Assembly: GCA_016871685.1 (NCBI GenBank)
Contig: VHCM01000008.1
Coordinates: 1-39,437 of the forward strand
Direction: 5' to 3'
From: Verrucomicrobiota bacterium
Lineage (GTDB): Bacteria > Verrucomicrobiota > Verrucomicrobiia > Verrucomicrobiales > Akkermansiaceae
Length of the DNA: 39,437 bases
The number at the start of each line of letters is the position of its first letter. Position 1 is the stretch's first letter. The position numbers were made by a program, and so were the translations under genes. A model generated the notes under the pieces. That model saw only the letters and a program-made list of their open reading frames with translations. It searched no databases and had not been told where the DNA came from. Shown in pieces: positions 602-21,006 of this stretch.

Positions 602-3600
602 ATGAAACCAACCCATCGTCATCCATTCCGCCTTGCCGCGCTCGTTGCCGCAGGACTGCTGCCCGGTCATCTCCACGCCGACACGATCGTCGCCAACAAG
701 GCCGACGCCCGATTCCAGACCGGAGTGAACGGCGTCATGATCGGCGGGGCAAGTGCCGCCACGAGCGGCAGCATCTACATCGGCCGTGAGTATTACAGCG
801 AAGGGTTGCTGCACATGGTCGTGCCATTCCAGCTCCCCGATCTCGGCGAGGGCACCTTCTCGGATGTCTCGGTTTCCTTCTATGTCCCCGGGAATAGCAA
901 CTATCAGGAGGACGATGACGGAAATCCGCTGCCGTCCACGCCGACCATGCCGGCCGATGCGATCAGCCTGAACCTGCATTTGATCGACGGCGTCTCGCGT
1001 GCCTCGTCCGCGCCGATCACCAGCGACGTGTACGATCTTGCCGCCGCAACCCAGCCGGGCAATCACCTGACCCGTGGTTTCGAAGTGATGACACCCTTCG
1101 TCACACCGTCCGACGATCCAGGCTGGATCACCACGCCAGCCGATGGCGCGGAGGAAACCTTGCTCACCAACAAGCTGAACCAAGCTTATGCCAATGGTGA
1201 GAAGTCCGGGGGATTCATCTTCTTCCGTCTCAGCCCGACGGTGCTCAACCCGGATTCGCTGACCGCTTACAATCAGCCCAAAGGGTTGAGCGTCAGCACG
1301 GCGAACTCGGGCTCAGCGCCCTACCTCACGTACACGTTCACGCCGGTGAACCCCAACGCTCCGGCGATCAGCCAGTTCGTGGCCGACCGCACGACGATCG
1401 GCACCGGCGGCGGTGCGACGCTCAGCTGGACCACGGCGAACGCCACGACCCTCAGCCTGAGCAATTCACGCAACGCAACGGTGGTCGATGTCACCGGCCT
1501 GACTTCCACCGTGGTCACCCCCACGGCCACCACCACCTACACGCTGACGGCGGAGAATGCACTGGGTTCGCGCACGCGCTCGGTGACCATTGCGGTCAAT
1601 GCGGCGATCACGCTGCGTGGCACCTCGACTGCGAATGCCGCCCAGAACGCGACTTCAATCACGCTCAACAAACCGAATGGCGTCTCATCCGGTGATGTTC
1701 TCATTGCCGCTATTTCACGGAATGCGAGCACGACGGGCAATATGAGTATCCCTACCGGATGGACCTTGATCGATCAGAGGCTGCTGCGCGATCCGGGTAA
1801 CAGCAACAAGATTTGGGGAGCGGTGTTTTACCGGGTGGCCGGTGCCACAGAAGCCAGCCCCTACAGTTTCACGCTCAACGCCACCACCTCCGCGAGCACG
1901 AATAGCGGTGCATCCGGCGTGTTGCTCGCCTATTCCGGTGTTGATGTCACCAACGGGCTCAACAAAGACGGCAGCACTGGCGGGCCATTTGACATCGTTC
2001 CCGGAACCATCAACGTCAATGGCACCTCGACAACAGCCTCGGCTGTCGCCAGCAGCATCACCACCGCCACCGCGAACAGCGGCATTGTGATGCTCGGCAT
2101 GGTGGGTGGCAACAGTTTTACCTGGTCTGGCTGGAACACGCTTTCGCCGGGTTCGCTCACCGAGGTTGCTGAGATTGTGCGCGGCGGCAGTTCCGCCGCT
2201 GCTGCCTGGGCGGTGAAGTCCACGGCGGGGCCGACCGGCAACGGCACAGCGACCACTTCCGGTAATGCCCAGATCCCCGGCGCGATCCTGCTCGCGCTCA
2301 AAGAGGGCACCGCGCCACCTGCGGTCACCAGCTTCACCGCCAGCGCAAGCAGCGTGGATCCGGGTACGCCGGTCACGCTGAACTGGAACGTCATCGATGC
2401 CTCGACCATCACCATCAACAACGGCATCGGCACGGTTTCCTCCAGCGGCTCGGTGGTGGTCAACCCCACCACTACCACCACCTACACGATCACGGCGCAG
2501 AATTCCGGGGGCAAGCAGGCGACCGCCGGCGTCACCGTCACCGTGCTCGGCCCGGGCCCCTATCGCTATTACCGCTTTGTCGCGGAAGCTCTCAGGGGAT
2601 CGTTTTCGAATCCGGTGCAAATCTCCGAGTTCCAGTTGCTGCTCAACGGTGTCCGCAAGCCCGCGGTCACCGTCACGAATCCTGGCGGACAAAACACGGT
2701 CACCGCAACAGAAGGAGCCAACAAGGCCAACGACAACGACCTCAACACCAAATGGCACGACAACAACAAGGCGCCGCTGGTGTATGACATGGGGCCGAAC
2801 AGCACGAACTGGAACGTCAACGCCTACAGAATCGCCACCGCCGGTGACGCGCCCGAGCGCGATCCGGTCACATGGAGGGTCGAGGGCAGCCACGACGCAT
2901 CCACTTGGATCGAGCTCAATCGCCAGACGGATTTTCCCATCACGGAAAGCCGCAACACCTACGTCGCGCCGAATTTCTCGATCACCGACTTCAATCTGCC
3001 ATATGTCACATTTGGTGCGAGCCGCACCTCGGTGACACTCGGCGAATCGGCGAATCTGTACTGGTACGTGCAGAACGCAACCACGGTGAGTATCGACAAC
3101 GGCATCGGCACGGTCGCTGGCAGCGGTCAGATCACTGTCACGCCCTCCAACGCCACCGATTACACGATCACGGCGACCAATTCTTCCGGCCAATCGGCCA
3201 CGAAGACCGTGCGCATCAGTGTGGGTACCAATCCGTTCCTCCTGCCACTCGCCAACGCGAGCTTTGAGAGCGACGCCAACAGCGATCCTACGGGAGCGTT
3301 TTTCAATGGCCAACGCGTCGCGCTCAACGGCTGGTCAATCATCGCCACCGACAACACGTCGACTCCGCTCGGCTCACAAGTTGCCGTGGGGTCGCAGGAC
3401 CTCACACCCGCCGCCGGCAGCCAGGCGCTCGGCCTGATGTCCGGCGTGGCGATCACCCAGATGACCAATGTGCGCTGGTCGAGTCTCGGCCCCGGCGACC
3501 AATTGCGTCTCACCCTCGCGGCCGGCGACCGCTCGACTCCCGCGGCCGCCAACCCGCGCTGGGCGGATGAATCGTTCTTCGGCATCAGCGACGGCCGGAT

Positions 3601-6600
3601 CAGCAAGGTGAACGGCTCGACCCCCGCGGCGACCGGCTGGCTCAACAACGTGGTCGCGAAAAGCAGCGCCGTCGCCACTCCGCCGGGCGGATTCAAAGCC
3701 GGGACGATGGGGGATGTGACGCTGAGCTACGAGGTCACGGCCGCCGATTACGATCGCAACGGCTTCGTCGGCATCTTCATTGCCTCGCTGGGCAACCGCG
3801 ACGTGAGCGGCAACGGCACCGACATTCCAGCCAGTCAGAGCTTCTGGGACAACGTGCGGCTCGAAGTGGTCACCCCGCCAGGACCGACCATCAATCAGTT
3901 CAGCAGCGACACCACGCTCACCAACGGCGGTGCGGCGACGCTGACGTGGGACGTGCAGAACGCGGACAGCATCTCGATTTCCTCGGGCATCGGATCCGTG
4001 AATCCGTTCGGTAGCCTCGAGGTGACGCCGAGCGGCACGACAACCTACACGCTCAGCGCGACCAACTCCGCGGGTACCAAGACGCGCTCCATCACGATCC
4101 GCGTCCAAGGTCCTGCGATCTACCGCTATTTCCGCTTCAGCCCCACCGCCATCCGCAATCCGAGCGACGGCATGGTTCAGATCTCCGAGTTTGAACTGCT
4201 CTTCGGAACGAATGTCATCACCGGTGCCACCGCAACCAACCCGGGCGGATCCAAAGCAGCCGACGATTGGGAGGGCGCGAGCAAGGCGGTCGACGCATCG
4301 TTCGGCACCAAGTGGCTGGACCAGAACATCAAGCCGCTGATCCTCGACTACGGCAAGACCATCGCCGCGACTGGCTATCGCTTTGTGACGGGCAATGATG
4401 CGGACGGGCGTGATCCCGTCAGCTGGATCCTCGAAGGCAGCCATGACAAGACCACCTGGTACATCGTCGACCAGAAGGACAATGCGACGATCACCACCAA
4501 TCGTCAGATCCGGATTGCCACCATCGGCACGTTCAGCAATTCGGTTTATCCCTCGAGCCCGGGCGCGCCCACCGTCAACAGCTTCAGTGCGAGCCCTGCA
4601 AGCATCAACGAGGGCGACACGGTCACGCTCAGCTGGGATGTCACCAACTCGACCAGCGTCTATCTGGTCGGTGTGGGTGATGTGGCCGCAACCGGCAGCC
4701 TGAATCTGCAGCCAGCGATCAGCACCAACTACCAACTCATCGTCAGCAACACGTCCGGCACAGCCGTGGCGGCGACGGTGGTCCAGGTCGCGCGTCTGCC
4801 GCGCGGCACTCTCTTTGCCTCCTACGACGACGCCGAGTTCCTCACCTACACGGATGATGGCAGCCTCGTCTCCGAATTCCCCAGCGGTGAATTCTTCACC
4901 ATCCTCGATGTCGGCCGGTTCCGCTTCGACGACGTGCTCCGTCACCTTGTCATTCCGTTTCAATTGCCCAATCTCGGAGCCGGAGCTTTCACGCTCGGGG
5001 AGTTGAGCCTGCGGGTCTACGGCAGCGAGCTGGGCACTTCGGGCCGGACCAACATCCAGCTCTTCGGCATCAACGAGGCTCGCGACTCCTCCTACACCCT
5101 CGGCACCGACGTGGTCAATGGAGCGGACAACCACCTCAACAACGGCACGTTGCTCAAGAGCGGCATGCTCAACGCGACGACACCGCTCGATTCGACGGTC
5201 GGCTCCGGTGAAGTCGGCGGCAGCGCTGCGGCCATCGGCTACTGGCTGAACCAGCTCTATGCCAACGGTGCCAATGCCGGCAAGTGGGTGTTCCTCCGGC
5301 TGAGCCCGGACGCCCTGTCGATCCCGGAGGGCTACGGCTTCGGTGTGAGCACCGGCGACGACTCGGATGCGCCGACGCTCACCTACGTGTTCGACCCGAA
5401 CGGGTCGGCTGGCATGCCGGTCATCGCCGGCTTCAACTCGTCGGTATCGATCATCGAGACCGGTGCTGCCACCAACCTCAACTGGAGCGTGCTCGGCGCC
5501 GACTCGGTGTCGATCTCCGGCGGTGTCGGCAATGTCGCCGGCAGTGGCAGCGTCAGCGTGTCGCCATCGGAAACGACCACCTACACGCTCACGGCCTTGA
5601 ATGCGAACGGCCAGCGCACGGCCACGACCACCGTCACCGTGGTGGCACCAGGAGCGTACCGCTATTACCGCTTCGTGCCTCTCGCCATCAGGTCGTCGAA
5701 CACCCTCAAACTCGGCGAACTCCAGTTCCTATCCGATGGCGTCGGTCTCAGTCCGGTGGAGGTCACCTCACCATACGAGGGCAGTGATTTCCGCTGGACC
5801 TATGGCAGTCCGGCCAACTTGTCGGACGGGCTTTTCACCTGGCCGTCCCTCTGGGAGGACGAACGGCCTCAGCCGGTCATCTTTGAATTCAACAGTTATG
5901 TCTCTGCCACCAGCTACCGCTTTGGCACTTGGGAAAACACGTCGAACGACCCGGTCTCGTGGCGAATCGAAGGCAGCCGAGACAAGATCAACTGGGAGGT
6001 GCTCGACACCCGCACCAACGTTGGCGAGAAGATCACCACCGAGCGCAACACGCTCACCCGCCAGTTCTATCTGATCCCGGGTGTGCCGGACATCAACTCG
6101 TTCGCTGCGACGCCGCAAATCATTTTCCCAGGCGAATTGTCGACGCTCTCGTGGAACGTGTCCGAAGTGCCGACCGTCACGCTCAACAACGGCATCGGAA
6201 CCCAACCGTCCGTCGGCAGCATCCAAGTGTCGCCGACCACCACCACCACCTACACGCTCGGAGCCTCCGGCCAGGGTGTCACCGACATCTTGAGTCGCAC
6301 CGTTTACGTCGCGAACACCGGACTGATCGGCAGCGTTTTCGACACAATCGAGGGGGCGAGCCACCTCTCGCCGATCGCCGGTTTGCTCACCCGCACGCCG
6401 GACGGCCAGTTCGTCCAGGAGGGAATTATCACCTACGAAAACGGCTCGTTCCTGCCGAATCTGCCGGGTCTCACCACCGAGGACAGTTTCGTTGTCCTGT
6501 GGCGCGGATGGTTCGACGTCACCAAGGATGGTCCCGGCACCTACACCTTCGGCGTTGGCTCCGACGACCTTGCCGTGGTCTACATCGACCTCAACGACGA

Positions 6601-9600
6601 CGGCGACTTCGCCGATGCCGGCGAGCAGGTTGCCTATGACAGCACGAACGGCAGCGCCAGCAGCTACATCCTGGGCACGGTGAACCTCACGGCGCCCTCC
6701 TACCGCATCGCCATCGCCTTCAGCGAGGGTGGCGGCGAGGCCATCATGCGCTCCGGATTCAAGAAGGGCAGTGGATACACCTTCAACCAGCTCTCGCCGA
6801 TCGACGGCTCCACCGGTCATTTCATGCCGGCCAAGCCGCTGAACCTGCCGCTGGTCAGCTTCACCGCCAGTCCGCAGTCCCTCGTGCTCGGCCAGTCGTC
6901 GACGATCAGTTGGAACGTCAGCAACGCCAACTCGATCGCCATCTCCGGCTACGGCACCGGCCTCGCCTCGAGCGGTTCGTTCACGATCAACCCCACGGCC
7001 AACACCTCCTACACGCTCAGCGCGACCAATGCCGACGGCACCCGTACCGTGCCGCTCACCGTTGTGGTGAAGTACGGATCACTCGACGGCCGCAGCTACG
7101 ACACGCTCGACAACAACAGCTTGTTGAGCCCGATCAGCGGGCTGATCAATTCGACACCCACCGCGACCTTCGTCCAGTTGGATCCGATCGTCTATGCAGA
7201 CAACCAGATGTATGGAAAAATTCCCGGCATCACCAGCAAGGACAACTTCTCGGTGCTGTGGACCGGATGGTTCAATGTCGCCGTTGATGGGGCCGGGGCG
7301 TACACCTTCGGCAACGTCAGCGATGACACCGGCGTGATCTACCTCGATCTGAACAAGGACGGGGATTTCAATGACACGGGCGAACGCATCGTCGACGGCA
7401 ATCAGACCAGCTCGGTTGTGCTGACCGATCCGGCCTATCGCATCGCCATCGGCTACCGTCAGGGTGCGGGCAATTATTACATCGACGCCCGGTTCAAGAA
7501 GGGAAGCGGTTTGGCCTACGCCGCGCTCGATCCGATCAACAACGGCACCGCGCACTTCCAACGCACCGAACCCGTCGGCAGTGCGCCGTTCATCACCTTC
7601 GATGTCTCGCCGGCCAATATCGCCGCAGGCGGATCCTCGACGCTCACGTGGTCGGTCAGCGGCTCCACTTCGGTGAACATCGACAACGGCATTGGATCGG
7701 TCGCGGCCAACGGATCGACCACCGTATCGCCGTCGACCACCACGACCTACACGCTCACCGCCACCGGACCGGGCGGCACCAGTGACGCGACCGCCCAAGT
7801 CACGATCGTGCCGGCTCCGACCCTGTCGGTGACCGCCAACCCCGCCACCATCAAGGAAGGCGAAGAAGTGGAGGTCTCGTGGACCTCAACCAACTCGACC
7901 AATGTGTCGATCGCCGGCCACGGGAATTGGGGAGGAAGCAGCGGCAGGACGTTTGAAAGGCCGTTGACCACCACGACCTACACGCTCACGGCCTACGGCA
8001 TCGGTGGCAGCACCACCAAATCCGTGACGGTCACCGTGCTGCCCAAGCCGGTGGTCACCTTCACCGCCAGCACCACCGAGGTGCTCACTGGCGGCAGCAT
8101 CACGCTGAGTTGGAATGTCACGGGAGCCGACTCGGTGAGCATCGATCTGGGAATCGGCAATGTCGCCGCCACCGGCAGCATCACCGTTTCTCCGACGGCC
8201 AGCTCGAACTACACACTCACCGCGGTCAATACCAACGGCACCTCTGCCAAGTCGCTGCTCATCGAGGTGGTTTCCTCTCTGCCGTTGCGCTACACGTTCG
8301 ATGACCTGACCCTCCAAGGCTGGCGCAACCTGCTGAAGAACGGCAGCCCGGGCAACGGTTGGTCCGCCACCACGGGTCACGGCGTCACCGATTATTTCCC
8401 GAACACCACCGAGGAACCGCGCAGCCCCGGTGCCGCGCGTTCCACTTTCCACGACGCCTCGCATCCGACGCAGATCCTGCGCTCTCCGGAGTTCACCCTG
8501 AACAGCTACGGCGATCTGACGGCCCGCGTGGCCGGTGGCAATGGCGGCTCGCTCTCGGCGCCGGTCGCCGTAACTTCCATCCCGACCAACTCGATCGCCA
8601 ACACCTACGTCACCGGCAATGAGGACGACGGAGGGGAAATCCAGGTGAACGGCTTCATGGGCATCGCTCTGCGCAGCGTGAACAGCGGCCAGTACGTGTT
8701 GGCAGCTTCGAAAATCAACACGGGCAACCATTACGAGTCGCTCACGATTCCCGCCGTCGCGCTTGCCGGACTCAACCAGAGCCACCGCTACACGCTCGAT
8801 TTCATCGATAGCGTCCACGGCGGCTGGGGCTGGGCCTCGCTCGACAACGTGGTGATTCCCGGCAATCCGGTGCAGCAGCCGATCACCATCACGCTCACCG
8901 CGAGCCCGGCGGGCATCGCCGCGGGCGGATCCACCACGCTGAGTTGGTCGGCCACCAACGCGACCACCGTCGATATCAGCGGCGTCGGCACCGGCCTGCC
9001 CGCCACCGGCACCGCCACGGTCAGCCCGGCCACCACCACCACCTACACGCTCACCGCCAGCAACGATGCCGGCCCGGCGAGCGAGTCGGTCACCGTGAAC
9101 GTGGTCGAGAATGCGCTGATGGCCTACACCTACGACACGCGTCCCGGCGGACTCGGCGGATATCCCCTCATTCCAATCAGCAACTTGATCGATGCCGAAG
9201 CGAGTGGCTCGTTCGCGCAGGTGGGCGATCTCGAGTACGATGAGAGTGGCGCGCGTCCTTCGCTCACGACGCTACCGGGCATCACGAATCCCGACGCGTT
9301 CGCCGTGCTGTGGCTCGGTTGGTTCGATGTCACACTCGACGGCCCGGGTGCCTACACCTTCGGCCTCGAGAGCGACGACGGCAGCATCCTTTACTTGGAT
9401 TTGAACAATGACGGCGACTTTGCTGATGCAGGCGAGCGGATCCTCGACGCCTCGTACGGAGAGGGGTCCACTGCAACGGTCAACCTGCCGATGAACTACG
9501 TCCGCTTCGCCCTCGGTTACGAGGAAAACACCGGCGGCCAATTCATCCGGGCACGCTTCGCCAAGGGATCGGGTGTCTCATGGAACAGCCTGAACCCGAT

Positions 9601-11380
9601 CAACGGCTCGACTGGCCACTTCCTCGGCAACGCCCCGGGTCCGGTCAGCCCCGCGATCGTGTTGTCCGCCAGCCCCTCGATCATCAGCCGGGACGAATCC
9701 TCCGTGCTCAGCTGGTCGATTACCAACGCTACATCCGCGACCATCGACGACGGCAGTGGACCCATCGCGATCGACGCGGTCTCCGGCACGCTCACGGTCA
9801 GTCCCTCGACCACCACGACCTACACGCTCGTTGCGGAAGGCGCGGGTGGCAGCAGCAGCGATCAGGTGACCTTGACCGTCAATCCACCCGCAGGTCCCGG
9901 GCCATATCGCTACTACCGCTTTGTACCGACCGCTCTGCGAAATCCGGACGACAACAGTGTGACGCTGGGCGAGTTCCAGATGTTGCTCAACGGTGTGCGT
10001 GTCACCGGTGCCACCGCGTTTGGTACCGATGCGGTCGGCGGCATCGACGATCCGGCCGATGGCGAGGAGCCGTTCTATTCCAACGACAACGATCCCGAAA
10101 CCAAGTGGCTCGACTTCAACAAGACGAATGCTCGGTTGGTGCTCGACTTCGGCGCGCCGCAAGATGTCACCGGCTACCGCATCGGGTTCTCCGACGACAA
10201 CGGCGGTCGCGCGCCGGTCTCATGGAGAATCGAAGGCAGTCCGGATGCCGTGAGCTGGAAGGTGCTCGATGTGCAGGTGGCCTATCCGGTGCCAACCGAG
10301 ATTGGTTACCTCGCCGATTTCGAAACCTCGCCGTTCAGCGGCGCGGCAATTTCCGTCTCGGGTCATCCCGGCGGCCTCAGCACAGTCTACGGTGTGGCCT
10401 CGAGTGCCAGTGCGTTCACCGTTTCAGCCTCCGGATTGACCTCTGGCGTCACGATCACCGCGCCTGGTGGCTTCGAGGTCTCGTCCTCTGCAGCTGGATC
10501 CTTCGGCTCTTCCATCGTGATCGGTGGATCCGGTTCGCTCAGTCCGGTGCAGGCCTACGTGCGGATCGCCGCAGGTGCCAACGCGGGTTCTCCATCTGGA
10601 AATCTCACGCTGAGCAGCCCGGGCGTTGTGAGTCGCACCCTCGCCGTTGCATCCAACACGGTGGCCCCCAAGGCCTTGAGCGTCACCGCCGCTGCCAAGA
10701 CGAAGATCTACGGCGATGCCGATCCGGCGTTCACCTACAGCGCCGATGGGCTGGTGGGCAGCGACGGGTTCAATGGCGCGCTCCTGAGGAATGCCGGTGA
10801 ATCCGTCGGTATCTACGCAATCAACCGCGGAACGCTCAGTGCCGGATCGAACTATACTCTCAGCTTCACCGGGGCCGATCTGACGATCACTCCGAAAGCG
10901 CTGGGTGCTGGCGACATCACGCTCACCCGAAACGGCAACAGCTACACCGCGAGTGCCAGCGGTGTCGGCGGCTTCACCTACAGCTACGTCGGCCGCAACG
11001 GCACGAGCTATGGACCCAGCGCTGACGCGCCATCGGCCGACGGTGATTACACCGTCACCGCCACCGTCAATGATTCGAACTACACCGGATCGAAGAGTGA
11101 GGATTTCACTGTCGAGTCGGTTGAGCCGCCACAAGACCATCCCGCGTTCAAGGTCACCTCGATGACCATGGTCGGCACGGTCTGCACCATGACCTGGGAG
11201 TCCCAGCCGGGCGCCAGCTACACGCTGCAGGCCACCGACAATCCGGCGGACCCGCAGTCGTGGACCACGCTGATGACCGGCGTCGCTTCGCAGGGTTCGA
11301 CGACTTTGATGTCGCTCGACATCGCCGACACCACCCATGTCGGTGCAACCAAGCTGTTCATGCGGATCAAGGCGGAGTGA
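602..11380 (+). CDS. Giant modular secreted/surface protein (3592 aa; Ig-like, discoidin-like, PA14-like and MBG domains)
   Basis: The first 26 or so residues form a signal peptide (basic start, LAALVAAGLLPG core, cleavage near HLHA-D), so the protein is exported. Two DNRLRE-like modules lie near residues 27-250 and 1400-1600. About thirteen 75-85 residue Ig-like modules share a LSW...NA..VSI..G.G.V...GS..VSP..TTTYTL pattern. Four discoidin (F5/8C)-like modules start with YRYYRF near 653, 1173, 1685 and 3100. Three PA14-like modules with D.N.DGDF.D motifs lie near 1907, 2159 and 2838. A jelly-roll-like segment (884-1093), a lectin-like segment (2562-2757), an MBG module (about 3358-3435) and a C-terminal MTWESQPGASYTLQAT module follow. 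There is no C-terminal membrane anchor, LPXTG or PEP-CTERM signal, and no catalytic domain is recognisable. Carbohydrate binding or adhesion is inferred from the modules. The frame is open throughout. The start has no clear ribosome-binding site, but the signal peptide fixes it. Confidence 0.9.
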   Translation: MKPTHRHPFRLAALVAAGLLPGHLHADTIVANKADARFQTGVNGVMIGGASAATSGSIYIGREYYSEGLLHMVVPFQLPDLGEGTFSDVSVSFYVPGNSNYQEDDDGNPLPSTPTMPADAISLNLHLIDGVSRASSAPITSDVYDLAAATQPGNHLTRGFEVMTPFVTPSDDPGWITTPADGAEETLLTNKLNQAYANGEKSGGFIFFRLSPTVLNPDSLTAYNQPKGLSVSTANSGSAPYLTYTFTPVNPNAPAISQFVADRTTIGTGGGATLSWTTANATTLSLSNSRNATVVDVTGLTSTVVTPTATTTYTLTAENALGSRTRSVTIAVNAAITLRGTSTANAAQNATSITLNKPNGVSSGDVLIAAISRNASTTGNMSIPTGWTLIDQRLLRDPGNSNKIWGAVFYRVAGATEASPYSFTLNATTSASTNSGASGVLLAYSGVDVTNGLNKDGSTGGPFDIVPGTINVNGTSTTASAVASSITTATANSGIVMLGMVGGNSFTWSGWNTLSPGSLTEVAEIVRGGSSAAAAWAVKSTAGPTGNGTATTSGNAQIPGAILLALKEGTAPPAVTSFTASASSVDPGTPVTLNWNVIDASTITINNGIGTVSSSGSVVVNPTTTTTYTITAQNSGGKQATAGVTVTVLGPGPYRYYRFVAEALRGSFSNPVQISEFQLLLNGVRKPAVTVTNPGGQNTVTATEGANKANDNDLNTKWHDNNKAPLVYDMGPNSTNWNVNAYRIATAGDAPERDPVTWRVEGSHDASTWIELNRQTDFPITESRNTYVAPNFSITDFNLPYVTFGASRTSVTLGESANLYWYVQNATTVSIDNGIGTVAGSGQITVTPSNATDYTITATNSSGQSATKTVRISVGTNPFLLPLANASFESDANSDPTGAFFNGQRVALNGWSIIATDNTSTPLGSQVAVGSQDLTPAAGSQALGLMSGVAITQMTNVRWSSLGPGDQLRLTLAAGDRSTPAAANPRWADESFFGISDGRISKVNGSTPAATGWLNNVVAKSSAVATPPGGFKAGTMGDVTLSYEVTAADYDRNGFVGIFIASLGNRDVSGNGTDIPASQSFWDNVRLEVVTPPGPTINQFSSDTTLTNGGAATLTWDVQNADSISISSGIGSVNPFGSLEVTPSGTTTYTLSATNSAGTKTRSITIRVQGPAIYRYFRFSPTAIRNPSDGMVQISEFELLFGTNVITGATATNPGGSKAADDWEGASKAVDASFGTKWLDQNIKPLILDYGKTIAATGYRFVTGNDADGRDPVSWILEGSHDKTTWYIVDQKDNATITTNRQIRIATIGTFSNSVYPSSPGAPTVNSFSASPASINEGDTVTLSWDVTNSTSVYLVGVGDVAATGSLNLQPAISTNYQLIVSNTSGTAVAATVVQVARLPRGTLFASYDDAEFLTYTDDGSLVSEFPSGEFFTILDVGRFRFDDVLRHLVIPFQLPNLGAGAFTLGELSLRVYGSELGTSGRTNIQLFGINEARDSSYTLGTDVVNGADNHLNNGTLLKSGMLNATTPLDSTVGSGEVGGSAAAIGYWLNQLYANGANAGKWVFLRLSPDALSIPEGYGFGVSTGDDSDAPTLTYVFDPNGSAGMPVIAGFNSSVSIIETGAATNLNWSVLGADSVSISGGVGNVAGSGSVSVSPSETTTYTLTALNANGQRTATTTVTVVAPGAYRYYRFVPLAIRSSNTLKLGELQFLSDGVGLSPVEVTSPYEGSDFRWTYGSPANLSDGLFTWPSLWEDERPQPVIFEFNSYVSATSYRFGTWENTSNDPVSWRIEGSRDKINWEVLDTRTNVGEKITTERNTLTRQFYLIPGVPDINSFAATPQIIFPGELSTLSWNVSEVPTVTLNNGIGTQPSVGSIQVSPTTTTTYTLGASGQGVTDILSRTVYVANTGLIGSVFDTIEGASHLSPIAGLLTRTPDGQFVQEGIITYENGSFLPNLPGLTTEDSFVVLWRGWFDVTKDGPGTYTFGVGSDDLAVVYIDLNDDGDFADAGEQVAYDSTNGSASSYILGTVNLTAPSYRIAIAFSEGGGEAIMRSGFKKGSGYTFNQLSPIDGSTGHFMPAKPLNLPLVSFTASPQSLVLGQSSTISWNVSNANSIAISGYGTGLASSGSFTINPTANTSYTLSATNADGTRTVPLTVVVKYGSLDGRSYDTLDNNSLLSPISGLINSTPTATFVQLDPIVYADNQMYGKIPGITSKDNFSVLWTGWFNVAVDGAGAYTFGNVSDDTGVIYLDLNKDGDFNDTGERIVDGNQTSSVVLTDPAYRIAIGYRQGAGNYYIDARFKKGSGLAYAALDPINNGTAHFQRTEPVGSAPFITFDVSPANIAAGGSSTLTWSVSGSTSVNIDNGIGSVAANGSTTVSPSTTTTYTLTATGPGGTSDATAQVTIVPAPTLSVTANPATIKEGEEVEVSWTSTNSTNVSIAGHGNWGGSSGRTFERPLTTTTYTLTAYGIGGSTTKSVTVTVLPKPVVTFTASTTEVLTGGSITLSWNVTGADSVSIDLGIGNVAATGSITVSPTASSNYTLTAVNTNGTSAKSLLIEVVSSLPLRYTFDDLTLQGWRNLLKNGSPGNGWSATTGHGVTDYFPNTTEEPRSPGAARSTFHDASHPTQILRSPEFTLNSYGDLTARVAGGNGGSLSAPVAVTSIPTNSIANTYVTGNEDDGGEIQVNGFMGIALRSVNSGQYVLAASKINTGNHYESLTIPAVALAGLNQSHRYTLDFIDSVHGGWGWASLDNVVIPGNPVQQPITITLTASPAGIAAGGSTTLSWSATNATTVDISGVGTGLPATGTATVSPATTTTYTLTASNDAGPASESVTVNVVENALMAYTYDTRPGGLGGYPLIPISNLIDAEASGSFAQVGDLEYDESGARPSLTTLPGITNPDAFAVLWLGWFDVTLDGPGAYTFGLESDDGSILYLDLNNDGDFADAGERILDASYGEGSTATVNLPMNYVRFALGYEENTGGQFIRARFAKGSGVSWNSLNPINGSTGHFLGNAPGPVSPAIVLSASPSIISRDESSVLSWSITNATSATIDDGSGPIAIDAVSGTLTVSPSTTTTYTLVAEGAGGSSSDQVTLTVNPPAGPGPYRYYRFVPTALRNPDDNSVTLGEFQMLLNGVRVTGATAFGTDAVGGIDDPADGEEPFYSNDNDPETKWLDFNKTNARLVLDFGAPQDVTGYRIGFSDDNGGRAPVSWRIEGSPDAVSWKVLDVQVAYPVPTEIGYLADFETSPFSGAAISVSGHPGGLSTVYGVASSASAFTVSASGLTSGVTITAPGGFEVSSSAAGSFGSSIVIGGSGSLSPVQAYVRIAAGANAGSPSGNLTLSSPGVVSRTLAVASNTVAPKALSVTAAAKTKIYGDADPAFTYSADGLVGSDGFNGALLRNAGESVGIYAINRGTLSAGSNYTLSFTGADLTITPKALGAGDITLTRNGNSYTASASGVGGFTYSYVGRNGTSYGPSADAPSADGDYTVTATVNDSNYTGSKSEDFTVESVEPPQDHPAFKVTSMTMVGTVCTMTWESQPGASYTLQATDNPADPQSWTTLMTGVASQGSTTLMSLDIADTTHVGATKLFMRIKAE
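1385..9880 (+). repeat. Thirteen dispersed copies of an Ig-like coding module
   Basis: The conserved strand motif TTTYTL or a close variant recurs near nucleotides 1530, 2480, 3160, 4045, 4730, 5580, 6245, 7010, 7748, 7978, 8212, 9043 and 9818. At DNA level these sites share near-identical runs of accacc-tacacgctcac. Copies 9, 10 and 11 are back to back; the rest alternate with discoidin-like, PA14-like or lectin-like modules. The pattern shows growth by duplication of module pairs and offers many short homologies for recombination. Confidence 0.8.
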
Positions 11381-14861: not shown

Positions 14862-16421
14862 TCAGCCCGCCGATTCCCCGTGAGCCAGGCTTTCACCGGA
14901 CTGACGCTCAACCAGCGGGCGGTCGAGCATCTCCTCATAGATCGCGATGTAGCGACGGGCCACCTCGTGGTGGCTGAACTCGCGCGCGCTTTCCCGCATC
15001 ACCCGGGCCAGCTCACGACCGCGGATTGCGGTCGGCAGCGCGTGAAACTCCATCGCGCGATCGATCGCCCAGCGCAGGCCGCCCGTGCCGTAGTGTTCGA
15101 AGCGGAATCCGTTGCCGGTGGAGTCCTCCGCATCGATCGGCTTGATCGTGTCGTACAACCCGCCGGTGGCATGCACGACGGGCAGTGATCCGTAAAGGGG
15201 AGCGGTCATCTGCGGGAGCCCGCACGGCTCGAACAACGAGGGCATCAGCATGAAGTCCGATCCGGCGTAAGCGAGGCGCGACAAGCGCTCGTCGAAGTTG
15301 ACGACGGCCACCCGATCATGCAGGTCGAATGCCGAGACGATCTTGTCGAACCAGTGCTGGTGGGGGCCGTTGGCGACCACGACGACCTGCAGACTGCGGT
15401 TCCAGTAGTCCGAGACGATCTCATGCAGGATGTCGGTGAGCAGTTGCGGACCTTTCTGGACGGGATCGAGCCGCGAGGGCCAGAAGAACACCGCCGCGTC
15501 GGGATCCTGCTTGAGCTGCAACTCACGCTGGAGCACGAGCTTGTTCGCCGCCTTGCCCGCGATGACGTCATCGGCAGTGTAGTTGCGGACCAGCGAGGGA
15601 TCCGTGGAAGGCTGATACGAGCTGTCCGGTGCGTTGAGAATCCCGGCCGAGCAGCCGGCATGGTATTTCTGGCGCAGTTCCTCACGGACCGATGAGGGAA
15701 CCACCTCGTGCCAACCCTCGACGATCTCCCAAAGAAACCTCGGGCTCACCGTGTTGATGTAGTGTGAGGCGAAGATGCCGGAGGTGAGCAGATCCACCGG
15801 CACTTGGGATCTGGCGTGATGATAGTTCTGCGGCGGCGAGGTGAAGTACAGGTTCATCCAGAATTCCGCGGCATCGATACCCGACTCCTCGATGCGCGCC
15901 AGCGAAACCTGGCGGGTGTGGATGTTGTGGACAGTGAACAGGCACTTGATTCCCCGGCGGCGGGCCATGGCCGGGATCAGCGAGGTCATCCAGTCGTTGC
16001 AATGGATCAAATCGGGGCGGACCTGGGGGATGATGTGGTTGATCACCTCGCGCTGGAAGACGAGCGCGATGCGCAGCGATTCCTCGGAGTGATCGCTGTA
16101 AACCTGCTCGCGATAGTAAAAGATCCGGTCCTCCGCGAGATGGATGTTCGAATCGGGCAGCACTTCATGATATTTCCTCAACTCCTTTTCATGCAGGTCG
16201 AAGACATCGCCTTGAAACATGCGTCGGTAATTCGGCAAGGCGACGTGCACGTCCGCGCCGAGCTCGAAGAGCGCCGACACCAACGATGCCGAGACATCAG
16301 CCAGTCCTCCGGCCTTGGCCGACATCCGCTGCGTCATGTTCCCCATGCCCTGCGGAAGATAGGTGATCTCCGGAGTGACGATGAGAATGCGCGGGTGCTG
16401 GGATTTCGCGTCAGTGGGCAT
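14862..16421 (-). CDS. glgA: Glycogen (starch) synthase, GT5 family
   Basis: The enzyme adds glucose from ADP- or UDP-glucose to a growing alpha-1,4-glucan in the cytoplasm. The GT5 signature AKAGGLADVSASLVSAL (counterpart of K-T-G-G-L) binds the nucleotide sugar. HCNDWMTSLIPA, TVHNIHTRQ, the KGPQLLTDIL segment and the C-terminal MLMPSLFEPCGLPQMTAPLYG (GT-B acceptor/donor loop with the EPCGL motif) follow. About 15 residues (TYLPQGMGNMTQRMS) are inserted just before the GGL motif compared with E. coli GlgA, which marks a divergent subfamily. The chosen start is the ATG at 16421 (519 residues). The frame stays open to an ATG at 16538, but the extra residues look like upstream DNA. No other glycogen gene is adjacent. 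Confidence 0.88.
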   Translation of the reverse strand: MPTDAKSQHPRILIVTPEITYLPQGMGNMTQRMSAKAGGLADVSASLVSALFELGADVHVALPNYRRMFQGDVFDLHEKELRKYHEVLPDSNIHLAEDRIFYYREQVYSDHSEESLRIALVFQREVINHIIPQVRPDLIHCNDWMTSLIPAMARRRGIKCLFTVHNIHTRQVSLARIEESGIDAAEFWMNLYFTSPPQNYHHARSQVPVDLLTSGIFASHYINTVSPRFLWEIVEGWHEVVPSSVREELRQKYHAGCSAGILNAPDSSYQPSTDPSLVRNYTADDVIAGKAANKLVLQRELQLKQDPDAAVFFWPSRLDPVQKGPQLLTDILHEIVSDYWNRSLQVVVVANGPHQHWFDKIVSAFDLHDRVAVVNFDERLSRLAYAGSDFMLMPSLFEPCGLPQMTAPLYGSLPVVHATGGLYDTIKPIDAEDSTGNGFRFEHYGTGGLRWAIDRAMEFHALPTAIRGRELARVMRESAREFSHHEVARRYIAIYEEMLDRPLVERQSGESLAHGESAG

Positions 16422-16630
16422 CGCAGGCGGATCAGGAGCGGGCTTGAGACCGATGATGCGACGGATCGCCGCACCACGCCAAGGAAATCCGCCGCGAAGC
16501 GGAGCGACCCGCGAACGCGCGAGTGACAAGGATATCATTTGCCCTCGTCCGGCTCGGATGCGAGGAGGGCGAGTGGCGGATATCGTCGCGTTGTCGGCGG
16601 CAGATCCCGTGCGCCCATCATTTCGAACCG

Positions 16631-17422
16631 ATGCAAACAGCAGAACGATCCACCGCGATTCGCGAAGTGATCGAGGCCCCGGTGGTCAGAAGCCGCATTC
16701 TGGAATACCTCGGTTGCGAGCGGCTCGAAGACGCGACGTGTGACTTCATCGGCAGGTTGGATCCGGTGAATCCGTCACGCTTCGAGCGGCATCCGGCCGC
16801 GCGGCTGCAGGCCTTGCTTGATGAAGGGTGCGAGCTCGCGCGCTCGTTCGGCGACCGGGACTCGATGCTCGTCCATCTCGACATCGAGTACGTGAACTTA
16901 GACGATCCGGCTGCGGCTTATGCGAATCCGCAACGCGCCTTCGCCTTGCAGGAACCTCTGGTGGCCGCGATCGAGTCTCGTTTGCTGATGCTGGGCATCG
17001 GCTACCTGCATCTGGTGACCGGCCAAGGGCATCACTTCATCTGGCGCATCGGCAAGCGGATGCCGGTGGCGGAGAGCATCGCGTCGCTCGGTATTTGCAA
17101 CACGGCGGAGCTGGAGCATCCTCCGGATCCGCTGTTTGCCCATCTCGGGTTGTTGATGGAGCACCTGTCCCACTTGATCAAGATGGACGCGGCGCGACTC
17201 TGTTCCGTGCCGGTCGAAATCACCGCCCGACATGTCGGCCCGGGTGGTTCCGGGGCGCGTGAAATGCTTTCCATCGATCTCTCGGAATACGGTGACCCAC
17301 TGGAAAGCCGGATGATCCGCATTCCCTACACGATTTACCGCAAACCGTGGGATCTCGGGGTTGATCGACCGGAGGTCGCTGGGATCGCGGGTCCGCAGTT
17401 TTTTCACGCTGCCGCTGCATGA
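16631..17422 (+). CDS. PriS-like archaeo-eukaryotic primase (AEP) catalytic protein
   Basis: The 263 residues carry the three AEP motifs in order. Motif I is VHLDIEYVN, with metal-binding Asp84 and Glu86. Motif II is TGQGHHFIW, the sGxGxH nucleotide-binding motif, residues 130-137. Motif III is SIDLSEYGDPLESRMIRIPY, with Asp216, followed by YTIYRKPW. The stretch from Asp216 to Lys238 resembles the archaeal PriS segment that ends with RLPGSLHGKTG. Such proteins make RNA or DNA primers or fill gaps. The ATG at 16631 is preferred over 16523 because the upstream residues lack coding character. The frame ends HAAAA-stop just after a T6 run, and the next frame (17424-18029) carries a PriL-CTD-like domain. 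No helicase, ligase or nuclease domain is fused. The family call comes from motifs alone, without a search. Confidence 0.72.
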   Translation: MQTAERSTAIREVIEAPVVRSRILEYLGCERLEDATCDFIGRLDPVNPSRFERHPAARLQALLDEGCELARSFGDRDSMLVHLDIEYVNLDDPAAAYANPQRAFALQEPLVAAIESRLLMLGIGYLHLVTGQGHHFIWRIGKRMPVAESIASLGICNTAELEHPPDPLFAHLGLLMEHLSHLIKMDAARLCSVPVEITARHVGPGGSGAREMLSIDLSEYGDPLESRMIRIPYTIYRKPWDLGVDRPEVAGIAGPQFFHAAAA

Positions 17423-17426
17423 AATG
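17399..17426 (+). other. T6 run and stop/restart junction between the two primase parts
   Basis: Six Ts lie at 17399-17404. With five, the frame of the first part would run into the second (PQFF then TLPLHEMGIRELI). With six, the first part stops at TGA 17420-17422 and an ATG in the second frame follows at 17424. The site can be read as termination-reinitiation coupling, as transcriptional slippage or +1 frameshifting on the T run, or as an indel. Confidence 0.6.
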
Positions 17427-18029
17427 GGAATCCGCGAACTGATCGAGCGACGTCACCGCCCGGATGTGGTGCTGGATCTTGCGAAACGCGCAGGAGTGAC
17501 CATTCCGGTGCAGGATGCGGGCATGGAGAAGCTGCTGGATTCCTACCGCAAGTCGGGACTCGCTACGTTTCACCGCTGGTTCTACTCGCGTGGTCACGGC
17601 TGGCACCCTGCGTGCGGCAGTGAGGTCGATGATGCCGCGGTGTGCGCGCTGCCGCCGTGTGCACGGCATGTGCTGGGACATCCCAACGACCTTCTGCTCA
17701 ATCCGTCCGGCATGCAGTTGGTGACGCGCTGCCTGCTCGCGGCCGGCTGGCACCCGCGCAGCATCGCGGGACTCATCACGTCGAGATTCCAGGATCCAGC
17801 ACATGACTGGCGCGGTCAGTGGGACCACTACGATCCTGCGGTGCGCGCCGATTTCTACGTGCGGTTGTTCGCGGGTGAGATCGACCAACGCCTCGAGCTG
17901 GGCGTTGATTTCAACTGTGTCTCCCAACAAGAAAAAGGATTTTGCTGGCATCCACACCGGTGCTCGCTGGCTTCGATCCACCGACGACTCTACGTGAGCG
18001 AGTCCGAATCCGAACCGATCCCGTCATGA
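17424..18029 (+). CDS. PriL-CTD-like iron-sulfur (Cys4) primase domain protein
   Basis: The 201 residues start at an ATG one base after the stop of the PriS-like gene. Cys79 sits in LPPCARHVL, as in the PPC motif that opens the archaeal/eukaryotic PriL C-terminal domain. It is followed by a helical LVTRCLLAAGWHPRSIAGLI segment like the PriL FALAHFLLEIG helix, then Cys165, Cys174 and Cys180 in NCVSQQEKGFCWHPHRC. The gap of 86 residues between the first and second Cys, then 9 and 6, is close to the spacing in PriL, where the four Cys hold a [4Fe-4S] cluster. I infer the same cluster here. The frame is open upstream of the ATG, so this may instead be the C-terminal half of one primase (see the T6 junction). 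Its stop overlaps the next start (ATGA). Confidence 0.62.
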   Translation: MGIRELIERRHRPDVVLDLAKRAGVTIPVQDAGMEKLLDSYRKSGLATFHRWFYSRGHGWHPACGSEVDDAAVCALPPCARHVLGHPNDLLLNPSGMQLVTRCLLAAGWHPRSIAGLITSRFQDPAHDWRGQWDHYDPAVRADFYVRLFAGEIDQRLELGVDFNCVSQQEKGFCWHPHRCSLASIHRRLYVSESESEPIPS

Positions 18030-18886
18030 GCGACTGGCCCTGTGGTATCTCAACGGGATGTTTCATCCGGACGGGCATCCTCGAAGCGCTTCCCTTGGTG
18101 CGCGACGGCGGATTCACCTTGGTCGAAATCTGCTCGTTTCCCGAGCATCTGGATTATCACGACCCGGGTCACGTCCGCGAGGCCGCCGGATTGATGGTCT
18201 ACCTCGGGATCGAGGCGAATTCATTCCATGCGCCGTTCGCCGACCGGATCGACATTTCGTCGCTCGATGCCGCGCAGCGTGGTGAGTCGGTGCGCGAGGT
18301 CTTCCGTGCCGCCGATGCCGCGCGCATCCTCGGCGCGCGCTATCTCGTGCTGCATCCGGGGCCGGAGAAGGCCGGCAAAGTGCCGTCGGAGGAGTGGCAG
18401 CTGCGCATGCGCAGCGCGGCGACCTTGCTCAACGAAGTCGCGCGACACTGCCGGGACCTCGGCATCACCCTGCTGCTCGAAAACATGCTGCCACACCTGA
18501 TGTTCGGCCACACCAGCGACATGCTCTACCTGCTCGGCGCGATCCGCGAGACCAACGTCGGTACCTGCCTCGACACCGGTCATGCGTTTCTCTCCGGCGA
18601 CCTCCGCACGGTGGTTCACAAGCTGTCCGGCCATCTCCGCATGCTGCATGTGAATGACAACTTGGGGGACCGGGACGACCACCTGCCGCCAGGCGACGGC
18701 GCGATCGACTGGACCTCGCTCATGCGCCAGCTCAGGCAGTGGCGGTTTCACGGTTCGCTGATCCTCGAACTCGCCGATGCCGGAGAAGCGCATCAATCGA
18801 TCATGGAGCGGGCGCGGTCGGCGAGAGGCTATCTGGCCGAGATCCAATCGCGGATCGAGTTCCAAGACCACCAAATCGGCCAATGA
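18026..18886 (+). CDS. AP_endonuc_2 (TIM-barrel) protein with an endonuclease IV-like zinc site
   Basis: The 286 residues form an AP_endonuc_2/xylose isomerase-like TIM barrel. Every position matching a zinc ligand of endonuclease IV is filled: His68 (SFHAPF), His110 (LVLHPG), Glu152 (LLLENM), Asp183 and His186 (CLDTGHAF), His208 (MLHVND), Asp217 and His219 (DDHLPPGDG) and Glu248 (ILELAD). The same fold serves sugar-phosphate isomerases and epimerases, whose DNLGDRDDHLPPGDGAIDW-like segment looks very similar, so a sugar isomerase remains the main alternative. The start at 18026 overlaps the stop of the upstream primase gene (ATGA), so the two are translationally coupled. The RecQ-like gene follows 176 bases later. 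I am sure of the fold and not of the substrate. Confidence 0.8.
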   Translation: MSDWPCGISTGCFIRTGILEALPLVRDGGFTLVEICSFPEHLDYHDPGHVREAAGLMVYLGIEANSFHAPFADRIDISSLDAAQRGESVREVFRAADAARILGARYLVLHPGPEKAGKVPSEEWQLRMRSAATLLNEVARHCRDLGITLLLENMLPHLMFGHTSDMLYLLGAIRETNVGTCLDTGHAFLSGDLRTVVHKLSGHLRMLHVNDNLGDRDDHLPPGDGAIDWTSLMRQLRQWRFHGSLILELADAGEAHQSIMERARSARGYLAEIQSRIEFQDHQIGQ

Positions 18887-19062
18887 CCAGACTGTGACGG
18901 ATTGACCCCGCGGTCGTTCAATGGCATGCAGGTCGTGGATGATGAATGAATGGATCGGATTGCGCTTGTTACGACACGCCGCCGACGGAGTTTGGGGATG
19001 GTTGACGGGCATGCCGCGTGCCGGATGGATTGGGTCCGGGCCACCTGAACACAGCTGATCCG

Positions 19063-21006
19063 ATGTCCGGCATCATGGAGATCAACGATTCCGACGATCA
19101 GGCACGCCTGATGCTGCGTGAGCGATTCGGCTTGAGCGGATTTCGTGACGGTCAAGAGCGTGTCATCAGGACCGTGATGCAGGAAAGGCCTGCGCTGGTG
19201 GTGTTTCCCACTGGCGGAGGAAAATCGCTCTGCTTCCAACTGCCCGCCGAGTTGCTGGGCGGGCTGGTGCTGGTCGTGTCCCCGTTGATCGCCTTGATGA
19301 AGGACCAGGTCGATGCGCTGCGCGCGAGGGGGATTGCCGCGGCAAGACTCGATTCGACGTTGGATGAGGACGGGATCCGCCGCGTGCTGGACCAAGCGGA
19401 ATCCGGCGCGCTGCGTCTGCTTTACGTTGCTCCGGAGCGGCTGACCCGTCCCGACTTCCGGAATTGGCCGGGTCTTCGGAAGATCGTGATGATTGCCATC
19501 GACGAAGCGCACTGCATTTCCGAGTGGGGTCATCATTTTCGTCCGGATTACCTGAAGCTGGCGGGTTTCTGCCGTCGGCTCAAATTGCGGCGCGTGCTGG
19601 CGCTCACCGCCACGGCGTCTCCTGCGGTGGCGCGCGACATCCGTCGGCAATTCCGGATCGCGGCGCGTGACGAAGTGCGGCTGCCTTACCTCCGCCCGAA
19701 CCTCGACTTGCGGATCACCCCCTGCGCCTCGGCCCAACGCATGTCCCTGTTGGTGGGTAAACTCGAGTCGATTGACGGAGCGGTGGTCGTTTACGTGACC
19801 CGTCAGGAGACGGCCGAGGAGGTGGCCACCGAGCTCTGCCGCGCGGGCATTGCCGCGCGTGCCTATCATGCCGGGTTGACCGCGGATGTCCGTGGTGACG
19901 CGCAGCAGGCGTTCATGACAGGGGATGCGCGGGTGATGGTCGCCACGATCGCGTTCGGAATGGGAGTGGACAAACCCGACATCCGCGGTGTGATCCATTA
20001 CAACTTGCCAAAGAGCCTCGAAGGCTACGCGCAGGAAACCGGACGTGCGGGACGCGACGGTAGTCCCGCCGTGTGCGATTTGCTGGCCTGCGGCGATGAC
20101 CTCACGGTGCTCGGCAACTTCATCGGCGCGGACCATCCACCGCTTCATGCGCTGCGCTCGCTGGTCGGTCGGGTCATGCGATTGGGCAGGGAGTTCGACG
20201 TCTCGATCCGCGAGCTATCGCTGTCGATCGATCTTCGCATCAGCGCGATCGGGACCATCCTCGCCCATTTGGAGTCGCGCGGGATTATCGAGCCGCTTGG
20301 CACACACCATCAGCGCTACCGGATCCGCCCGCTGCGGTCCCACGAGCGCATGCTGCACGGCCATCCTGCGGTGCAGCGCCGTTTGTTGCGACGGATCCTT
20401 TCGCATGGCCGGGCCGCCTGGGGCTCGATCGAATTCGAGCCCACCGATCTCGCCCGGCAGCTTGGCGTCAGGCGCGAGCGGATCATCGCCGCCCTGTCAT
20501 CGCTCGAGGCAGCGGGCGATGCGGTGATGGAAGTGTCCGGAGTGCGTCATGCGTTCCGTGTCAAACGAGAGCCCGAATCCATCGCCGCGCTGGCCGACGA
20601 AATCGCCGATTTGTTCGTGCGGCGTAGAGAAGCCGACCTCGGGCGATTGCGCGACGTGGCCGCGTTCTGCGCGTCGCGCACCTGCCTGGCGGCGCGGCTT
20701 GCCCGTCATTTCGGCACGCGTGGCGCTGCGGCCTGCGGTCAATGCGACCGCTGCCGCGGTCTGCCCCCGGTGCGTTTGCAACGCCCGAGCGCGCGGGAAG
20801 TCGGCGAGGTCGAGTGGCTGAAGATCCGCGAGATCGCTGCGAGGCGTCATCCGGCGTTGGCCGCGCCGGAGCAGTTGACGAAGTTCCTCTGCGGGATGCG
20901 CAGCCCGGCCACGGTGCATGCCAGACTCACGCGCGACGCGGGTTTCGGCATGCTCGCCGATGTGTTGTTCGACGACGTGTTGCCGATCGCCACAGCGGTC
21001 ACCTGA
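19063..21006 (+). CDS. recQ: RecQ-type ATP-dependent DNA helicase
   Basis: A superfamily 2 3'-5' helicase used in recombination and fork repair. Motifs: FRDGQERVI (motif 0), FPTGGGKSLCFQLPA (Walker A), SPLIALMKDQV, IDEAHCISEWGHHFRPDY (DEAH box), LALTATASP, AYHAGL, VATIAFGMGVDKPDIRGVIH and GRAGRDG. E. coli RecQ has its zinc module right after the core, then a winged helix and HRDC. Here a winged-helix-like segment comes first (about residues 400-530), and the zinc-like Cys pattern (CASRTC...CGQCDRC) is near residues 540-570. A helical tail of about 80 residues with LTKFLCG and LARHFG-like turns follows; HRDC is not obvious. The chosen start is ATG 19063; GTG 19018 and ATG 19075 are alternatives, and none has a clear ribosome-binding site. 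It converges on ftsH 42 bases away. Confidence 0.88.
   Translation: MSGIMEINDSDDQARLMLRERFGLSGFRDGQERVIRTVMQERPALVVFPTGGGKSLCFQLPAELLGGLVLVVSPLIALMKDQVDALRARGIAAARLDSTLDEDGIRRVLDQAESGALRLLYVAPERLTRPDFRNWPGLRKIVMIAIDEAHCISEWGHHFRPDYLKLAGFCRRLKLRRVLALTATASPAVARDIRRQFRIAARDEVRLPYLRPNLDLRITPCASAQRMSLLVGKLESIDGAVVVYVTRQETAEEVATELCRAGIAARAYHAGLTADVRGDAQQAFMTGDARVMVATIAFGMGVDKPDIRGVIHYNLPKSLEGYAQETGRAGRDGSPAVCDLLACGDDLTVLGNFIGADHPPLHALRSLVGRVMRLGREFDVSIRELSLSIDLRISAIGTILAHLESRGIIEPLGTHHQRYRIRPLRSHERMLHGHPAVQRRLLRRILSHGRAAWGSIEFEPTDLARQLGVRRERIIAALSSLEAAGDAVMEVSGVRHAFRVKREPESIAALADEIADLFVRRREADLGRLRDVAAFCASRTCLAARLARHFGTRGAAACGQCDRCRGLPPVRLQRPSAREVGEVEWLKIREIAARRHPALAAPEQLTKFLCGMRSPATVHARLTRDAGFGMLADVLFDDVLPIATAVT

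Follow-up and report, generated by a model that had tools for sequence, protein, structure and literature searches.

The window, the whole 39,437-nucleotide stretch of DNA analysed here, carries a pair of adjacent genes that suggests an unrecognised stress-linked DNA-repair module of Verrucomicrobiota, Planctomycetota and a small number of further phyla. The first gene, split in this copy by a single base, encodes a putative polymerase of the archaeo-eukaryotic primase (AEP) superfamily followed by a helical domain with four conserved cysteines (Cys4), and the second encodes an endonuclease-IV-like TIM barrel. We give about an even chance to the proposal that the two form a chromosomal module for short-gap or excision repair, in which a polymerase would be coupled to an end-cleaning phosphodiesterase; the activities, substrate and pathway are predicted from sequence, modelled structure and genomic context. 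The features of the pair are as follows.

16631 to 17422, forward strand: split gene, first half, AEP catalytic domain (ATG at 16631, stop TGA at 17420-17422)
16880 to 16888, forward strand: AEP motif I, D-I-E (hhhDhE); D in 59/59 and E in 58/59
17021 to 17035, forward strand: AEP motif II, G-Q-G-H-H; both G in 59/59 and both H in 58/59
17276 to 17278, forward strand: AEP motif III Asp in SIDLSEYGDP, equivalent to D223 of the ortholog; 59/59
17349 to 17351, forward strand: frameshift site, a GGG run that is one base longer than in the relatives with which it was compared
17352 to 18029, forward strand: split gene, second half, linker and Cys4 helical C-terminal domain, in the +1 frame
17658 to 17963, forward strand: stretch holding the four conserved Cys codons (first bases at 17658, 17916, 17943 and 17961)
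18026 to 18886, forward strand: endonuclease-IV/CbiR-like xylose-isomerase-type TIM barrel (PF01261, E 6e-39)

The sequence-only reading had described the first two open reading frames as two primase parts lying side by side. Comparison with relatives indicates that ORF1 and ORF2 are the halves of one protein of ~465-470 aa. A single ORF of ~465-480 aa is found in nearly all of the 80 loci collected from GTDB genomes, and among the 59 genomes related to that of the window, 19 gave matches, with open frames of ~375-580 codons that span both halves. Separate PriS-like and PriL-like genes are thereby ruled out. The first half matches the relatives through the W codon at 17348-17350, and the frame is lost over its final ~24 codons, which end at 17422. 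At this point the window reads CCG TGG G|ATC TCG GGG where relatives read CCG TGG ATC/CTG TCC GG.., and the protein of the nearest relatives continues uninterrupted (...YRKPW-ISGL/LSGL...FFTLPLHEM). One surplus G within 17349-17351 thus appends a short spurious tail to the first half and shifts the second half into the +1 frame. ORF2 also opens independently, with an ATG at 17424, one base past the TGA of ORF1, and ends with a stop at 18027-18029; if the indel is real, this TGA-A-ATG layout could yield both halves through re-initiation. When joined, the window copy deviates at 1 of the 72 columns that are conserved at >=95%, and the median of the other members is also one. The copy thus shows no decay, so that the indel is either very recent or a sequencing or assembly error, and a long-decayed pseudogene is ruled out. 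A programmed frameshift is unsupported, since the extra base occurs in none of the close relatives. A second frameshift-broken member was observed (L100, 10001-11379, the same as L010), with the break after ...KYENPAFNWG and an intact TIM barrel behind it.

ORF1 carries VHLDIEYVN, TGQGHHFIW and IDLSEYGDP...RMIRIPYTIYRKPW, the three AEP motifs that had been recognised from the sequence alone, and their residues are kept in 58 or 59 of 59 relatives; together with the Cys4 pattern described below, this conservation greatly exceeds chance. The pattern R..R.P...Y.K downstream of motif III is invariant or nearly so among 59 sequences. The sequence-only reading had proposed structure prediction as a check, and the AlphaFold2 model of an intact ortholog (L024, Luteolibacter), built from a 59-sequence alignment, has an AEP fold (pLDDT 91.3, pTM 0.92). 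We compared this model with solved structures using Foldseek and VIA-align. The best match was Prim-PolC of Mycobacterium smegmatis (Z 17.0 over 252 residues, 3.7 Å), followed by LigD polymerase domains (Z 14-15), the CRISPR-associated Prim-Pol CAPP (12.8) and PriS/Pri1 (10-13, with PriS at ~12), and more distantly by RepB' (Z 9.7) and PrimPol (~7). Among viral structures, Foldseek returned weak matches to phage AEP/PriCT proteins and to one archaeal-virus primase large subunit, with a best E of 3e-3. In its predicted structure, the catalytic domain is nearer to the Prim-PolC and LigD repair polymerases than to PriS. The earlier description of this part as PriS-like therefore holds for the AEP fold and motifs and does not extend to the PriS subfamily, as no profile match to PriS or to other known AEP models was found in Pfam, NCBIfam or PHROG. 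Neither half of the window gene matched a Pfam, NCBIfam, PHROG or PADLOC model; 18 intact members searched against Pfam gave no AEP match, and a sequence search of the PDB with the primase-polymerase gave no match. The protein combines a predicted catalytic AEP/RRM-like fold with motifs I (hhhDhD/E), II (sxH) and III (hD), the features of the AEP superfamily. On the basis of this model, the first gene product is a member of that superfamily, a predicted polymerase whose family has yet to be named.

Prim-PolC, which is associated with LigC, resembles the window protein as the closest solved fold and as a chromosomal bacterial AEP, but the two share only 13-14% identity, no adjacent LigC gene was seen here, and the window protein has a Cys4 C-terminal domain and an EndoIV-like partner in the same operon. 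The LigD polymerase domain and other NHEJ AEPs share the AEP fold (Z ~15), a chromosomal location and a coupling to end-processing phosphoesterase activity, whereas in the window there is no linkage to a ligase or to Ku, which is absent, and no match to the family models.

In ORF2, a PPC motif is followed by Cys at +86, +9 and +6 (C79, C165, C174 and C180, or C-x85-C-x8-C-x5-C), exactly the arrangement first noted, and a strict search found the full pattern C-x84-90-C-x8-C-x3-10-C in 47 of 59 members. The C2-C3 distance is +9 throughout in members with tabulated spacing. A consensus PriL bait served solely to retrieve real PriL chains from the PDB; in these, the C2-C3 and C3-C4 spacings are +9 and +4 in Sulfolobus and +11 and +6 in Pyrococcus abyssi. 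One Heimdall PriL has C334 and C343 (+9), with a C1-C2 interval of 82 residues (PMC12770985). When ORF2 was modelled alone (pLDDT 82), the top structural row was the human PriL 4Fe-4S domain (3q36_B), a weak match with Z 3.0 over 75 residues, an rmsd of 2.8 and a Foldseek E of 8.7. By sequence, no Pfam match to PF04104/PriL was obtained, and comparisons by hhalign and hmmsearch with a fragment of yeast PriL and with the consensus bait gave no significant signal. In the ~470 aa L024 model, everything past the AEP domain is helical, with no winged helix. Of the proposed likeness to the PriL C-terminal domain, the Cys spacing, which fits archaeal PriL, is upheld, and a match at the level of sequence profiles is not. 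We consider it likely, though short of proof, that this is a PriL/PriCT-like Fe-S domain with putative cluster binding. The Cys are lost, and the catalytic motifs and TIM-barrel partner kept, in a Spartobacteria clade (L090, L091, L095, L098) and in L103. This loss agrees with the archaeal PriL cluster, which was reported to be dispensable for priming (PMC5700102), and the Cys-less members offer a natural test of the role of the Cys4 domain.

The succession of an AEP and a four-Cys helical domain, with archaeal-PriL-like Cys spacing, is shared with PriS-PriL and its single-chain forms, the Nanoarchaeum equitans primase and PolpTN2 of plasmid pTN2. Unlike PriS-PriL, the protein described here is encoded on a bacterial chromosome, with no separate PriL subunit and no PriS/PriL profile match at the sequence level. 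PolpTN2 has Gln in motif II, a PriCT-1 domain and a winged helix, whereas the present family has His in motif II and no winged helix, and differs from PolpTN2-like and PrimPol-PV1 proteins by its absence from the phage, plasmid and viral collections searched. CAPP, likewise a bacterial AEP, carries conserved Cys in a C-terminal domain of the PriCT type (PMC8211822), but the window protein has no TPR domain, no Cas genes nearby and another partner.

A PriL-like domain is typically an initiation module, and PriL-CTD, PriX and PriCT-type domains bind the initiating nucleotide in primases (PMC5700102; PMC5862659). The main rival to a repair role is thus repriming, in which the AEP and Cys4 domains would initiate primers de novo beyond lesions or where forks have collapsed, as for PrimPol, CAPP and PriSL, and the EndoIV-like partner would remove the primer, a ribonucleotide or the lesion. 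The resemblance of the 86/9/6 spacing to archaeal PriL, the human PriL domain at the top of the ORF2 matches and the D-x-E form of motif I are consistent with such a function, but the folds nearest to that of the catalytic domain belong to repair polymerases that act in gap filling and end joining, the Arg used in initiation by the human and yeast proteins (R306/R355) aligns with Met in a hand alignment, and the Cys can be lost while the catalytic motifs persist. We regard repriming as unlikely, though a serious contender.

The start of the TIM-barrel gene overlaps the stop of the primase-polymerase gene in an ATGA. The TIM barrel, absent from the sequence-only reading, is the next gene in 77 of the 78 loci with room for it, mostly with an overlap of 4 nt. 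In locus L047 (2486-4759), the AEP protein and the TIM barrel are fused in one ORF; the bin concerned is titled Planctomycetaceae yet is placed among Verrucomicrobiota in the tree, and is perhaps misbinned. Both genes occur in the identical 19 of 59 relatives and neither occurs alone in any. The divergence of the AEP protein correlates with that of the TIM barrel (r = 0.80, against <=0.17 in 2000 permutations). One genome (G039) has two complete pairs, L007 and L021.

Like endonuclease IV (Nfo) and CbiR, the TIM barrel belongs to family PF01261 and has all nine three-metal ligands. The ligands were mapped by aligning the TIM barrel with End4 of M. tuberculosis and Nfo of E. coli and correspond to H68, H110, E152, D183, H186, H208, D217, H219 and E248. 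The match of H68 comes from a profile alignment to M. tuberculosis End4, as MAFFT misplaces this residue for E. coli Nfo. All nine (H, H, E, D, H, H, D, H, E) are invariant in 36 partners. Identity to E. coli Nfo is 21-26% in the alignment, and several loop insertions of Nfo are missing. The nearest curated models are CbiR phosphodiesterase, with the best NCBIfam score, and, in third place, Nfo, both below cut-off (34.9 bits for the nfo model, against a cut-off of 129.65). The closest solved structure, PDB 3wqo (MJ1311), is that of a functionally uncharacterised protein from an archaeon, which keeps these metal ligands when aligned. Judged from these residues, the second gene encodes a putative endonuclease-IV-like three-metal phosphodiesterase, with both activity and substrate predicted.

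Since PF01261 includes many sugar isomerases as well as CbiR, a nucleic-acid substrate for the TIM barrel is not proven. The enzyme might instead be a metabolic isomerase or a CbiR-like phosphodiesterase of a small-molecule pathway, with the AEP protein as a nucleotidyltransferase, as the predominance of sugar isomerases in the family and the CbiR score would allow. We find this improbable, since the AEP polymerase motifs are all invariant, the metal ligands match the set found in three-metal phosphodiesterases and the surroundings contain no fixed metabolic gene.

The preferred repair reading draws on Prim-PolC, which acts in the base excision repair of mycobacteria by filling short gaps; this repair was most efficient when endonuclease IV processed the gaps (PMC5663958). 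A short-gap excision-repair module accords with a Prim-PolC-like AEP next to an EndoIV-like phosphodiesterase, often amid stress genes. The TIM-barrel enzyme would cut abasic sites or clean blocked 3' ends, and the AEP protein would fill the resulting gap of one to a few nucleotides, possibly with ribonucleotides. The Cys4 domain may hold the template or the 5' phosphate or initiating nucleotide, a ligase supplied by the host would seal the nick, and the module would act under stress or dormancy. The genome of the window, a draft of 2.27 Mb in 189 contigs, encodes DnaG and XthA; AP-endonuclease activity is thus not missing from it, a point against the module. In favour of the module, it contains no canonical Nfo above cut-off. 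It also has no PF04104 protein and no Ku, and Ku does not track with the AEP-TIM pair among the relatives. The idea of a little-described primase on a bacterial chromosome is borne out as regards chromosomal location and the lack of a described family, and gives way as regards function: a fold nearer to Prim-PolC and LigD, together with an obligate EndoIV-like neighbour, makes a repair role likelier than that of a replicative primase. On the best reading, the AEP-Cys4 protein is not a replicative primase; its own genome encodes DnaG.

Besides the TIM barrel, no gene is fixed around the 80 loci. Hsp20 genes lie near 21 and universal stress protein (USP) genes near 17 of them, where ~0.3 and ~0.7 were expected from background densities of 0.32 and 0.71 per Mb, taken from the 59 relatives only. 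The excess persists at five times the background density; as the loci are akin to one another and include phyla beyond the background sample, P values are indicative only. Other recurrent neighbours are CBS, BON, LuxR-type response regulators and P-type ATPases, each cluster being identified from one Pfam-tested representative. Against a stress-linked repair module count the neighbours of the pair in the window itself, glgA and recQ, and the finding that neither DNA ligase nor Ku nor a glycosylase is a conserved neighbour in the 80 loci.

The tree covers Verrucomicrobiota, Planctomycetota, Acidobacteriota, one Fibrobacterota bin and one Deltaproteobacteria bin (names as in the submitters' titles), mostly grouped by phylum. 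Cultured planctomycetes with the pair include Lacipirellula limnantheis I41 and Roseiconus nitratireducens. Prevalence is low (10 of 384 genomes of the phylum), and the patchy occurrence among close relatives, together with the compact operon, could suggest an anti-phage defence cassette of two genes; this is very improbable, since PADLOC gave no match for either protein and the neighbours are unlike defence genes. The least probable reading of all is a primase serving the replication of a mobile element or prophage, as for most bacterial AEPs: the patchiness and the precedent of bacterial PrimPol-PV1 AEPs, found almost exclusively in integrated mobile elements (PMC5862659), would agree with it, but the AEP was not found in 50,697 phages, 72,556 plasmids or IMG/VR, no replication helicase, integrase, capsid or other mobile-element gene was seen among the conserved neighbours, GC is even with the surroundings, and housekeeping and stress genes lie nearby. 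The pair is chromosomal and, by the collections searched, probably non-mobile.

AEP polymerases in bacterial repair and the combination of an AEP with a PriL/PriCT domain are already known. Bacterial AEPs have mainly been described in LigD/LigC repair, in CRISPR loci and on mobile elements. In the libraries and papers searched, we did not find the family, the chromosomal single-chain AEP-Cys4 architecture or the obligate EndoIV-like partner. Our literature search, made outside subscription journals, found no paper describing an AEP-Cys4 family, and an earlier description is possible. We propose tentatively, and as somewhat short of an even bet, that the pair represents a new non-mobile repair pathway, with a single-chain primase-polymerase bearing a PriL-type Fe-S domain, an obligate EndoIV-like phosphodiesterase and a location in stress or dormancy islands, in at least 3-4 phyla. 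If true, bacteria would possess a further route of excision or gap repair, one that employs an archaeal-type primase, possibly with an Fe-S domain. The fixed operon partner gives a pointer to function and, if confirmed, the family would provide a bacterial setting in which to ask what a PriL-type cluster does, its naturally Cys-less members included.

The glycogen/starch synthase gene glgA (14862-16538, reverse strand) is divergent from the pair, and a homolog occurs in the cassette flanks of six other loci (L031, L050, L069, L070, L074 and L079). The RecQ-family helicase gene lies directly downstream of the pair (19018-21006, forward strand) and is not a conserved neighbour in relatives; PADLOC DpdF models and general RecQ models alike give its product high scores. 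Elsewhere in the window (602-11380, forward strand), a 3592-aa ORF with MBG, PA14, F5/8 type C and Ig-like domains encodes a giant surface or secreted protein.
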